Assembly: GCA_020200235.1 (NCBI GenBank)
Contig: JAIVJC010000009.1
Span: 1 to 40,475 of the forward strand
Origin: Acidobacteriota bacterium
GTDB lineage: Bacteria; Acidobacteriota; Blastocatellia; Pyrinomonadales; Pyrinomonadaceae
Direction of reading: 5' to 3'
Length of the DNA stretch: 40,475 bases
In this document: positions 11,016 through 15,689 of the stretch, piece by piece
Layout of the letters: every line of letters begins with the position of its first letter
Position numbering within the stretch: position 1 is the first letter of the stretch
Notes under the pieces: generated by a model
Database searches by the model: none
What the model was told of the DNA's origin: nothing
The model's input: only the letters and a program-made list of their open reading frames with translations
Position numbers and translations under genes: made by a program

Positions 11016-11510
11016 GTGAACCGCAAGCTAATACGACCCACACTGGCGGACGTGAAGAACCGCGAAGCCGTCGCGCCGGCTGGCGACAGAGACGCGGACG
11101 CGCCGCGCGAGCGCGAGCGTGACCGCGAGGGCTCGAGCCCCCGCGGCGTCGGCGGCGGCTACGCCCCGCGCCCCGGCGGCTCGTCGCACTCCAGGCCCGC
11201 GCCCCCGAGGGACGGCGGGATGATGTCGTCCTCGCGCGACGCGATCCAGAGCGGGCGCAAGCGCGTCCCGCCCGCGGAGACGAACGCCGAAATCTTCTAC
11301 TACAAAAAACAGATGGACTCTCACACGCAGATGGTCATCGTACTGATGGACGGCGAGGAGATCGAGGGCACTATCGAGTGGTACGACCGCGCCGCGCTCA
11401 AGGTCAACCGCCGGGGCGCGCCCAACATCCTCCTCCTCAAGCACAACATCAAGTACATGTTCAAAGCCGAGGATCGCGACGGCGGCGGCGACTCCGGCGG
11501 CAAGAGCTAA
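11016..11510 (+). CDS. hfq: Hfq-like Sm RNA chaperone with long N-terminal extension
   Basis: Sm-fold protein expected to form a hexamer and pair small RNAs with mRNAs. The Sm core is residues about 88-152: [18 protein letters not shown], then [20 protein letters not shown] (Sm1), then [13 protein letters not shown], which keeps the KH of the canonical YKHAI motif (Sm2). The first 85 residues are charged, Arg/Pro/Gly-rich and probably disordered, so the protein is about 60 aa longer than E. coli Hfq. Start GTG is set by GGAGGT at 11001-11006, nine bases upstream. pdxA follows in the same frame 33 bases after the stop. Identity as Hfq is by pattern; it is a divergent member. Confidence 0.8.
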
Positions 11511-12668: not shown

Positions 12669-13076
12669 GTGTCTGCCAAGAACGATAAAAAAGCGAGCCG
12701 GGTTCTCGTCGCCGACGACGACCCGGCGATCCTGCGTCTGGTGACGACGCTCGTCGAGAAGGAAGGTTACTCGGTGGTGACGGCGCGCGACGGGCGCGAG
12801 GCGGTCAAGCTGATGAAGGCTGACGCCGACTTCGCCGCCGCCATCTTCGACGTGGTGATGCCGCACATCGAGGGACCCGAGCTCGTCCGCTACATGCGCT
12901 CCGAGAAGCGGCTGATGAAGATCCCCGTCATCATGATGACCGCCGAGCAGAACCCGAAGCTCACCTCCGACAGCTTCGCCGCGGGCGCGGTCGTCTTCCT
13001 CCCCAAGCCCTTCACCTCCTCGCAGCTCCAGGTCATGCTCCGCATGATCGTCAGCCAAGCCAGGAAGAAAGACTGA
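12669..13076 (+). CDS. Single-domain response regulator (CheY-like receiver)
   Basis: Stand-alone phosphoacceptor receiver of a two-component pathway, 135 aa. Acidic pocket D16-D18 (VADDD), phosphoacceptor D61 in IFDVVMP, T91 in MMTAEQ and K113 in LPKPF are all present, so it should be functional. There is no output domain and no histidine kinase in the window, so its partner is unknown. Start GTG 12669 follows GGAGGG about 10 bases upstream. Repeat A2 lies just upstream, separating it from pdxA. Confidence 0.9.
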   Translation: MSAKNDKKASRVLVADDDPAILRLVTTLVEKEGYSVVTARDGREAVKLMKADADFAAAIFDVVMPHIEGPELVRYMRSEKRLMKIPVIMMTAEQNPKLTSDSFAAGAVVFLPKPFTSSQLQVMLRMIVSQARKKD

Positions 13077-13114: not shown

Positions 13115-14152
13115 ATGGACAGACCCCGACCCAGATCGATTCTCACGCGCGCGACAGCCTCCGCCCTCGCCTGCCTGCTCTGCCTCGCGTCTTCGGGGCG
13201 CGCGGGCGCGGCGAAGGGCGAGCTGAAGAAGTCGGACGCGCAGAAGCTGATCGCCGCGCTGTCGCTGCTCGAACTCAGCAAGGGCGCGGTCACGGTCAAA
13301 GAGATCACCTCCGACGCGTCGTCGGCGACCGTCAACGCCGCCGTGAAGATGGGCTTCCGCTACGAGCGCGACGCGAAGGGCGTGTGGCACGTCGCGGAGG
13401 TGCGCGTCGGCGAACGTCAGTGGGAGGAGTTCGATCTGCTCGCGCGCGCCGCCGGGGCTGACGCCGTCGCGCGCGCGCGCGCCGCGCTCGACTCGGTCGC
13501 CGCGGAACTCGTAGAGCTGAGCCTCGCGAAGAAGAAGCGCGACGACGAGGAGAAGAAGAAGAAAGAAGCGAGCCGCGAGGACGCCGCCGCGGCAGAGAAG
13601 GGCGGCAAGGGTAAGAAGAAGTCGGGCGCGGCGGACAAAAAGGCGGAGGGCGCGGCGGATAAAAACGGATCGAATGATGACGCGCTCGTGCGCGGCGCGT
13701 TGCGCGTGAAGAGCCCTGAGACCGCGCTTTCGGGGATGGGCAAGTCGGCGGTGGTCGAGGCTGAGGTCGAGGGCGTGTTCGAGTTCGTCCGCGACGGAGG
13801 CTCTTGGCGAGTCGCCGCCGCCCGGCTCGGCGGCGAGCGCCTCGCGGACTTCGACGCGACGGTGCGCAAACTCGACTCGGAGAAAGCGGCGCGCGCGCGC
13901 GCAGACCTCGAATCACTCGCCGCCGCGCTCGAAGCCTTCCGGCGCGAGCGCGGCTTCTACGTCGTCGCCGATTCGGGGGTCGTGCTCGTCGATCACCTCA
14001 ACCCGCGCTACACGGATCGCTTCATCCGCCTCGACCCGTGGCACAGGCAATACGAGTACGAAGGCACGCCCGAACGTTTCACGCTGCGCTCCCTCGGGGC
14101 GGACGGCAAGCCCCACACGGTTGACGACATCGAAAGGCGCGGCGGGCGTTGA
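13115..14152 (+). CDS. Secreted protein with two repeats and a pseudopilin-G-like C-terminus
   Basis: 345 aa, function unknown. Residues 1-32 are a cleavable-type signal peptide (positive start, hydrophobic LACLLCLASS core), not a type IV pilin leader. A module at about 50-125 recurs at about 190-275: both have an AV-A-V strand, a Y/F-E/V-RD turn, W-x-V, a G-E-R-x-x-x-F-D segment and end in A-RAR-A-L-S-AA-L. A 60-residue Lys/Glu/Ala linker lies between. The C-terminus (about 275-340) matches the type II secretion pseudopilin G pattern: long helix, GFYV, DPWHRQYEYEG, LRSLGADGKPHTVDDIE. I infer a periplasmic or surface protein that borrowed this fold. No T2SS genes are nearby. Confidence 0.75.
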   Translation: MDRPRPRSILTRATASALACLLCLASSGRAGAAKGELKKSDAQKLIAALSLLELSKGAVTVKEITSDASSATVNAAVKMGFRYERDAKGVWHVAEVRVGERQWEEFDLLARAAGADAVARARAALDSVAAELVELSLAKKKRDDEEKKKKEASREDAAAAEKGGKGKKKSGAADKKAEGAADKNGSNDDALVRGALRVKSPETALSGMGKSAVVEAEVEGVFEFVRDGGSWRVAAARLGGERLADFDATVRKLDSEKAARARADLESLAAALEAFRRERGFYVVADSGVVLVDHLNPRYTDRFIRLDPWHRQYEYEGTPERFTLRSLGADGKPHTVDDIERRGGR

Positions 14153-14234: not shown

Positions 14235-15689
14235 GTGCCCTTTTCTTGGAGGGCCACGAGTGGAAAATCTCGCCCCGCGTCGTTCCCCCTTGAGCCGCAC
14301 GCAGATGCGCCGAGGAAAGTTAAGCCGCCCCCGGAACGCACGCTCACCCCAAAAGGGAGTTACACTTGCCCACGCCTCACCTTCGACGATGAAGGCTTCA
14401 CGGTCATCGCCGTCGGCGGCGGCTCCGAGGCGCTCGAACAGTTGGGGCGCATCGTCCCGGACGTTGTCCTCGCGGACGTACACATGCCCGCGCCCGGCGG
14501 CTACGAGCTGTGCGAGCGCATCAAGCGGGACGCGCGCACGCGCCACGTCCCAGTCATGCTGCTCGTGGGCGCGTTTGAACCATTCGACGAAGCGGAGGCG
14601 CGCAGAGTTGGCGCGGACGAAGTCTTGACCAAACCTTTCCAATCCATACGCGATCTGGTGAACAAAGTCGGCGGGATGCTCGGCGGTCAACCCGACCCCG
14701 TGAGGACCGACGCGCGCGACGCCGAAGGCGCCGCCCGCGGGGACGATTCCGCCCCGCGCGCGTTCGACCCCCTCGCTAACGAGCGCGCCTCAGACGCGGC
14801 GGGCTCACGCGCGTTCGAGACATCAAAGGACGAAGGCGCGCGAGCAGTCGCCGCCGCACCCGCGTTCGCCGACTTCGGCGTCGACGACGAGGGCATCGAG
14901 ACCGCGACGCCCGACGAGTTCGCCGCGCGCAGCCACACGCACGACGCGGAGTTGGCGGAGCCGCGCCCGCCGGTCAGCGCCGCGCCGAAGAGTTTCGCCG
15001 CCACGGCGTCGAGCGCCGCGCCGCGCACGCAGACCTTCGAGTCGCGCGCGGACGCCGCCGCAGCAGCCGACGACGCGCTGCTCGAACTCGGCGACTTCGA
15101 TTCGCCGATCGCGCGCGACACCTCGTCGGACGACTTCGTGCTCGACATGGGCGACGCCGACGCTTACACCGCGCCGCGCGCCGCAGCCGCCGAGCGCGTC
15201 GTGGACGAGCCCGTCTATGCCGCTGACGCTTACGCCGACGACGCGCCCTCGGCGGTCGAGACGATGGGAGCGGGCAGCCTCTCGATGGCTGAGCCGTCCG
15301 TCGCCTGGGACGACGCCGAGGAGTTCGCCGTCTCGCCCGAAGCGATCACAGAGCCAGTCCAGCCTCCGGCGCATGAAGCGGAGACGACCGCCGTACATTT
15401 CGACGACGAGGCGCAGCAGGCAATCGAAGCGCGTGGCGCGGCGACCTCCGACGAGTCCGCGCCGTCAGAGTCGAAGGGGATGAATGGAGTTGCGAGCGTC
15501 GAGCCGGGCGCGCACGCTCAGTTGGGCTCGACGGAGCTGTCGCCAGAAGCGATCGACGCGATCGCGCGCAGGGTCGTCGAGCATCTGTCGGAGCGCGTCG
15601 TGCGCGAGATCGCGTGGGAGGTCGTGCCCGACCTCGCCGAACGACTCATCCGCCGCAAGCTCGCCGAGGAGGAGACGCGGTCGAAGTAG
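14235..15689 (+). CDS. Response-regulator-like protein with damaged N-terminus
   Basis: From about residue 47 a receiver domain is clear (RLTFDDEGFTVIAV, phosphoacceptor D81 in LADVHMP, GAFEPFDEAEARRVGADEVLTKPFQS with K133). The first strand and its acidic pair, normally just before the RLTF-type helix, are absent and replaced by about 45 unrelated residues. The best start signal, GGAGGG plus GTG 14260, is in a different frame from the receiver, so a frameshift or rearrangement between 14260 and 14370 is likely; the in-frame GTG 14235 has no ribosome site. Residues 150-430 are a long acidic Ala-rich disordered region, and the last 50 a conserved-looking amphipathic helix (VVREIAWEVVPDLAERLI). 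May be a pseudogene or an atypical receiver. Confidence 0.7.
   Translation: MPFSWRATSGKSRPASFPLEPHADAPRKVKPPPERTLTPKGSYTCPRLTFDDEGFTVIAVGGGSEALEQLGRIVPDVVLADVHMPAPGGYELCERIKRDARTRHVPVMLLVGAFEPFDEAEARRVGADEVLTKPFQSIRDLVNKVGGMLGGQPDPVRTDARDAEGAARGDDSAPRAFDPLANERASDAAGSRAFETSKDEGARAVAAAPAFADFGVDDEGIETATPDEFAARSHTHDAELAEPRPPVSAAPKSFAATASSAAPRTQTFESRADAAAAADDALLELGDFDSPIARDTSSDDFVLDMGDADAYTAPRAAAAERVVDEPVYAADAYADDAPSAVETMGAGSLSMAEPSVAWDDAEEFAVSPEAITEPVQPPAHEAETTAVHFDDEAQQAIEARGAATSDESAPSESKGMNGVASVEPGAHAQLGSTELSPEAIDAIARRVVEHLSERVVREIAWEVVPDLAERLIRRKLAEEETRSK

Follow-up and report, generated by a model that had tools for sequence, protein, structure and literature searches.

A predicted GspG-type pseudopilin head on exported, non-pilin proteins of Acidobacteriota

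The prepilin leader is marked by a GFTLIE-type motif. GspG (PulG, EpsG) is the major pseudopilin of the type II secretion system (T2SS) and is described by the models PF08334 and TIGR01710. In the E. coli protein (3G20), calcium is held by the main chain of P114 and V119 and by the side chains of D117, T122 and D125, as given in an excerpt of the structural report (PMC3396595). Foreign domains are grafted onto the pilin in modular pilins, while the major pilins of Geobacter consist of stick and head as two proteins, both according to an excerpt of a single paper (PMC10191384).

The protein described here has the predicted head fold and the calcium-loop residues in common with GspG. In contrast to GspG, it lacks the prepilin motif and the membrane helix, carries an exported module ahead of the head, is encoded outside a gsp operon and scores below the equivalog cut-off. 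Like the modular pilins it joins a pilin head to another domain, but those keep the assembly helix, whereas here the helix is missing and the head itself is the graft. As in the split pilins of Geobacter the head stands apart from the helix, yet there it belongs to the pilus and here it is fused to an exported module. No description of this architecture was found in the open-access literature searched at the level of titles and beginnings of abstracts.

The gene lies at 13115..14152 (+) of a 40,475-nt stretch of DNA analysed as a whole (the window) from a soil bacterium (Acidobacteriota bacterium; Blastocatellia; Pyrinomonadaceae; GCA_020200235.1, contig JAIVJC010000009.1, positions 1-40,475); together with its relatives in other genomes it is called the target. 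Its reading frame, its PF08334 match and a structure model describe an exported protein of 345 aa with an ATG start, composed of a signal, two modules, a Lys-rich linker and a GspG head, all encoded on the plus strand. The sequence-only reading had proposed a cleavable N-terminal signal, and inspection by eye agrees: residues 1-32 (13115..13210) resemble a Sec-type signal with a basic start, a hydrophobic stretch and an A-x-A ahead of AKGE, the likely cleavage falling between AGA and AK. This signal contains no lipobox by our own rule and no prepilin motif by motif scan. Module 1 (residues 37-112, 13223..13450), delimited by a profile match, is predicted to form one helix and three long strands (DSSP of the model: H39-47, E59-66, E70-85, E91-98). 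It is followed by a helix at residues 115-163 (13457..13603; H115-163 in the model), which by the repeat alignment would be a remnant of the pseudopilin helix of unit 1 continuing as a charged helix, and by a Lys/Glu-rich linker at about residues 138-189 (13526..13681), with a pLDDT of 54-69 over residues 161-190. Module 2 (residues 190-245, 13682..13849), recognised by the same profile and as a repeat of module 1, is without the leading helix of the latter. The T2SSG head (13865..14125) is without the membrane half of helix 1.

The GspG-type C-terminus, also claimed in the sequence-only reading, is borne out by several comparisons. PF08334 (T2SSG) matches residues 251-337 at E 5.4e-9, scoring 36.5 bits where the cut-off is 21, and gives E 4.7e-9 for the target in a search of its genome. 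It is the sole Pfam match of the target at E 1 or better, and within the same limit it is found in all 17 members of alignment A4 (best E 2.4e-10). TIGR01710 is matched with E 3.3e-8 and 33.6 bits, under its equivalog cut-off of 88.85, and from model position 29 onwards, which indicates that the head is present and that leader and membrane helix are absent. GspG structures also head a phmmer search of PDB sequences (2kep, E 1.6e-4). The AlphaFold2 model of the window protein (24 sequences; mean pLDDT 84.1, pTM 0.72) aligns first with PulG in VIA-align (1t92_A; Z 10.1, 1.9 A over 87 aa), and GspG-type structures fill the next five rows. The model of a single-module relative, L042 (17 sequences; mean pLDDT 76.1, pTM 0.55), again finds PulG 1t92 first (Z 10.6, 2.1 A over 88 aa) and other GspG structures next. 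Structure prediction thus returned a pseudopilin fold rather than the foldless C-terminus that would have contradicted the earlier claim. Plain Foldseek gave no significant match for the window model, mostly low-probability immunoglobulin-like rows with a C. difficile PilA1 fusion at rank 50; for L042 it ranked EpsG first, with probability 1.00 but E 0.05. A single PF08334 match, the target itself, occurs in the window's own genome (87.6% complete), and the prepilin motif is present in 0 of 90 relatives scanned. Taken together, sequence matches and models support the reading of the target as an exported non-pilin protein that ends in a GspG-type head.

The putative calcium loop, LGADGKPHTVDD (residues 327-338, 14093..14128, +), places L327, K332, D330, T335 and D338 at the positions of P114, V119, D117, T122 and D125 of E. 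coli GspG. Across 90 proteins, the window's own included, D330 and D337 are each Asp in 90, position 335 is Thr in 78, Ser in 11 and Asn in one, and position 338 is Asp in 81 and Glu in nine. The candidate calcium-site residues thus appear largely invariant in the family.

The sequence-only reading had also noted a duplicated module and a Lys-rich linker. Both stand, with the refinement that unit 1 extends into the start of the pilin helix. Aligned over 83 aa, residues 37-135 share 39% identity with residues 190-275 (Smith-Waterman score 118, against a maximum of 53 among 1000 shuffles), and the modules are predicted to adopt a small alpha+beta fold present in two copies. Their resemblance to NTF2-like folds (the CaMKII hub and the ARC6/PARC6 domain) is weak, with VIA Z-scores of 4.3 for the window model and 7.1 for L042, below the level at which kinship can be told from a shared arrangement; no NTF2-like Pfam match is found among A4 members. 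The profile search suggested earlier, run with an HMM built from the 15 single-module relatives of alignment A1, matched the target twice (model 10-125, E 3e-26, at 13160-13510; model 58-195, E 6e-56, at 13727-14140) and reached relatives across the phylum. At the start of the pseudopilin helix, unit 1 ARARAALDSVAAEL aligns with unit 2 ARARADLESLAAAL. Since the repeat includes the first turns of that helix, unit 1 would be a truncated copy of the module plus pilin start, and one interpretation is that the Lys-rich linker occupies the place of its remaining head.

The basic form of the family is a protein of about 200 aa with a signal, one module and a GspG head. The two-module state requires three changes on a 90-row tree, in nine rows that include the window (SH-aLRT 94), in four rows (96) and in G409, whose long branch makes its placement unsure. 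Unit 1 ends at model 125-133 in the window's group and at 107-108 in the four-row group, and these differing boundaries support separate duplications. Judged from the sequences, the duplication arose late, within the branch that holds the window. In three genomes of one genus (G046, G054 and G050) the signal and module are kept and the reading frame stops with no GspG head behind them (L180:4183-4611, L181:4694-5119, L182:4649-5203; A1 HMM match and frame reading). Partial extra GspG heads lie downstream of the intact gene, with other genes between, at L038:12009-12347 and L042:14714-14983. A pattern R-x-G-D-x-x-W-E, considered as a family-wide motif, was dropped, being present in 39 of 43 proteins of the window's class and 22 of 47 from elsewhere in the phylum.

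The spread of the family was surveyed within Acidobacteriota genomes. Matches to the window protein occur in 45 of 60 genomes of its class, its own included and G046 by the module alone, and in a draw of 396 genomes from the phylum the A1 HMM finds matches in 226, a count in which full-length relatives are mixed with partial matches to ordinary GspG. Beyond the drawn genomes, a related-locus search with the window protein alone as query found no match, and one with alignment A1 found 24 loci, all from the one degenerate pattern on which this broader search rested. The 90 proteins extracted, the window's included, comprise 43 of the class and 47 from non-class Acidobacteriota. The former come from 41 genomes plus HR08 and HR10, both placed inside the class by the tree; class genomes with a match that were left out are G046, which has the module alone, and four that were partial or not extracted (G031, G052, G057 and G059). 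The latter come from 40 genomes with the target at E < 1e-25 and seven weaker full-length cases from families f9 and f35, taken from among the weak matches listed. The quick tree of these 90 rows largely groups by family code, with a single change between class and non-class (SH-aLRT 95), and descent appears to have been mostly vertical. By these sequence comparisons, the target is a member of a family found in many Acidobacteriota lineages and no one-off. The earlier idea of a secretion fold reused outside a T2SS locus holds.

The membrane anchor differs between the two sets of proteins. A lipobox is found in 45 of 47 non-class and 2 of 43 class proteins by a second rule, which was adjusted by eye once the first counts had been seen; its predecessor, which missed plain lipoboxes, had yielded 28 of 47 and 6 of 43. 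Lipobox state changes five times on the 90-row tree. In E. coli, the residue after the lipoprotein Cys determines the membrane to which the protein is sorted. In the 47 positives this residue is G, A, S or F and never D, which by the E. coli rule indicates the outer membrane.

Because the polymerising part is missing and the gene usually lies away from machine genes, the head has apparently been put to a different use. The architecture and the reuse of the head are well supported; it is also fairly probable, from sequences and models, that the target is a non-polymerising pseudopilin head employed as a calcium-clamped binding domain in the envelope. On this view, the head of a T2SS major pseudopilin would have parted from its prepilin leader and its polymerising membrane helix and come to follow an exported alpha+beta module. 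After export by Sec, the protein would reside in the periplasm in the window's class, and in other classes it would be held by a lipid anchor, probably one at the outer membrane. Entry into a filament along the normal prepilin route would be closed to it. Calcium may lock the head loop, and the head together with the module may serve for binding or as an adaptor. A T2SS-type machine may have been the original partner, with the target persisting where no canonical GspG is found.

Another explanation, possible but unlikely, gives the target a dedicated accessory role in a T2SS or type IV filament machine: as a pseudopilin reduced to a tethered head, it would make contact in the periplasm with the pseudopilus or its tip, with the secretin or with the substrate. 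The predicted head fold and the calcium-site residues have been retained, as such a role would favour. Outside the class, canonical GspG (E < 1e-20, with confirmation by the prepilin motif in 22 head-tree rows only) occurs in 37 of 47 target-bearing genomes. This count, raw, based on self-chosen cut-offs and ignoring kinship, fits an accessory role in T2SS better than full independence and makes a T2SS-type partner a live alternative, but co-occurrence could also come from shared ancestry. The ten target-bearing genomes without canonical GspG are G132, G292 and G344, all 82% complete or less, and seven of f9 or f35. The 40 stronger target genomes fall into 14 family codes, each of which also has canonical GspG, and 12 further genomes of the 396-genome draw have it with no target match at E < 1e-25. 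Families f20, f69 and f71 have canonical GspG without the target and f9 and f35 the reverse, which speaks against a dedicated accessory.

The window's class also speaks against it. The target is common there, yet no canonical GspG was seen in the 60 class genomes, weak matches at G002:C251, G013:C76, G018:C17 and G058:C19 aside. Five strong extra PF08334 matches in the class (L056-L060) were considered as canonical GspG and rejected, being zinc-ribbon membrane proteins instead. They form a second non-pilin use of the GspG head: frames of 224-266 aa with a zinc ribbon, a linker, one membrane helix and a T2SSG head (G049:C34, G052:C359, G044:C19, G057:C24 and G041:C79), four of them seen in full and L060 known through the motif filter and its head-tree row. 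Like the target they carry a GspG head on a non-pilin, but their zinc ribbon is of the cytoplasmic type, their membrane helix is internal and they fall on the canonical side of the head tree. In that tree, 31 targets and the 22 canonical GspG rows that passed the motif filter, of 30 fetched loci, lie on opposite sides of a branch with support 100/99.

A filament-machine partner would nevertheless be available in the class, given its ATPases, secretins and gspF-E-D clusters. The type II/IV ATPase family is present in 60 of 60 class genomes and a secretin in 59 of 60, the window's own included; against an accessory role, the 12 of 37 genomes of the window's family without the target keep both. 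The GspD equivalog TIGR02517 exceeds its cut-off in 0 of 60 class genomes, which is no proof against a T2SS-like machine because gspD-like genes are present. The window's own genome has six N-methyl prepilins, all away from the target, a pilMNOPQ-like set and a gspD-E-F-like cluster, with names given partly by sequence and position. Of seven comparison stretches, L226, L227, L228 and L232 of the class each contain a gspF-E-D cluster with two prepilin motifs, and L229 shows one; L230, from a target-less genome, has the F and E genes only, and L231 is a gsp operon from a non-class genome. A compact cluster recurs in L226, L227, L228, L232 and L183, consisting of PilC/GspF-like and GspE-like proteins, a long secretin, two prepilins and a PilM-like protein; the own-genome version (G000:C191) also has two prepilins.

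The neighbourhood survey proposed by the sequence-only reading bears on the same question. A tblastn search with 18 machine proteins over 60 target stretches, the window among them, found no gsp or pil machine gene near the target in 54 places; in each of its two matches canonical GspG had picked up the head of the target itself, and positive controls gave 31. A prepilin motif scan of the 60 stretches added two sister loci, each with three tandem pilA-like genes downstream of the target (L037:5589-7339 and L038:12655-14405). These two are the sole exceptions to a machine-free neighbourhood and the only adjacency in favour of an accessory, with 52 of 54 places clear. It is doubtful, and less likely than an accessory role in general, that a widespread, membrane-tethered head-only pseudopilin is an unrecognised part of the Acidobacteriota type II/IV filament machines, later freed for some other task in the envelope where lineages lack canonical GspG; such a tethered head might perhaps cap the growing pseudopilus at a fixed point or give it a place to dock.

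Much less probable is a periplasmic sensor part that works with neighbouring response regulators or cell-division genes, a reading suggested by the frequent neighbours of the target in the window's family. A single-domain response regulator (12669..13076, +; PF00072, E 1e-25) lies 38 bp upstream of the target. Downstream is a gene for a response-regulator domain (14235..15689, +; PF00072, E 5e-15), a long low-complexity region and a conserved C-terminal segment, IARRVVEHLSERVVREIAWEVVPDLAE. The 44 context stretches include six same-place pairs and so represent 38 places, 30 of them in the window's family or its context and the others being L047, L048, L055 and L100-L104. In this family the target is usually found downstream of the cell-division cluster, in the dcw/pdxA neighbourhood: pdxA is upstream on the same strand in 28 of 30 places (L043 is cut off and L095 has a different context), and of the 25 places with at least 4.5 kb of upstream sequence, 23 have ftsZ no more than 8 kb upstream (L045 and L095 do not). 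An Hfq-like C-terminal domain behind a Gly/Pro/Arg-rich region is encoded at 11016-11510, just under the Pfam cut-off, by a gene usually conserved downstream of ftsZ. The upstream response regulator adjoins the target in 24 of 30 places and fails to do so in six (L039, L044, L050, L051, L052 and L095), and the downstream regulator is absent from L037, L038, L041, L042 and L095 despite a long stretch. Outside the window's family the contexts differ, which also argues against a sensor: in one the target is near mfd, a small membrane protein, a TPR protein, a CAP protein and ispE, and in another, among the matches listed, near recG/rsmD/coaD, a thioredoxin-like protein and ribA (mfd, ispE, recG, rsmD, coaD and ribA being named by our own reading of the sequences). 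In class members outside that family (L047, L048, L055, L100 and L102), a gene for a small hydrophobic protein of 160-175 aa has its start overlapping the target stop by 4 bases. The target itself contains nothing to carry a signal across the membrane.

The sensor reading is weakened further by the downstream regulator, which remains where the target is gone. Twelve of 37 genomes of the window's family have no target match; pdxA is present in 11 of the 12, and so is the downstream regulator at E 1e-32 or better, G032 having weak regulator matches only. In nine (G006, G009, G014, G017, G020, G022, G024, G027 and G033) pdxA and the regulator share a contig, with 121-667 bp between the matched parts, space for a response regulator but hardly for the target too; in G018 and G025 they are on separate contigs. 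The target can therefore be cleanly missing from its locus in this family.

Least credible are a divergent true GspG with a misread start or unusual leader, to which the head's matches to GspG models could point but which is opposed by the lack of a prepilin motif in all 90 proteins, the folded module ahead of the head in the models, the lipobox of non-class relatives and the separate canonical GspG match in most of their genomes, and, equally improbable, a chance similarity of the calcium loop, a motif also found in unrelated peroxidases according to the excerpt of PMC3396595, whereas the match here spans the whole head (251-337) in sequence and predicted structure.

It is easy to read a T2SSG match as a sign of type II secretion, and here such matches fall on proteins unable to be ordinary pilins. 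In the window's class, four weak cases aside, T2SSG matches belong to the target family or to the five zinc-ribbon proteins, so that T2SSG alone could miscount secretion systems. The arrangement is the reverse of modular pilins, a pilin head placed on another exported protein with its calcium-site residues kept. Genomes with and without the target at one locus offer a natural comparison.
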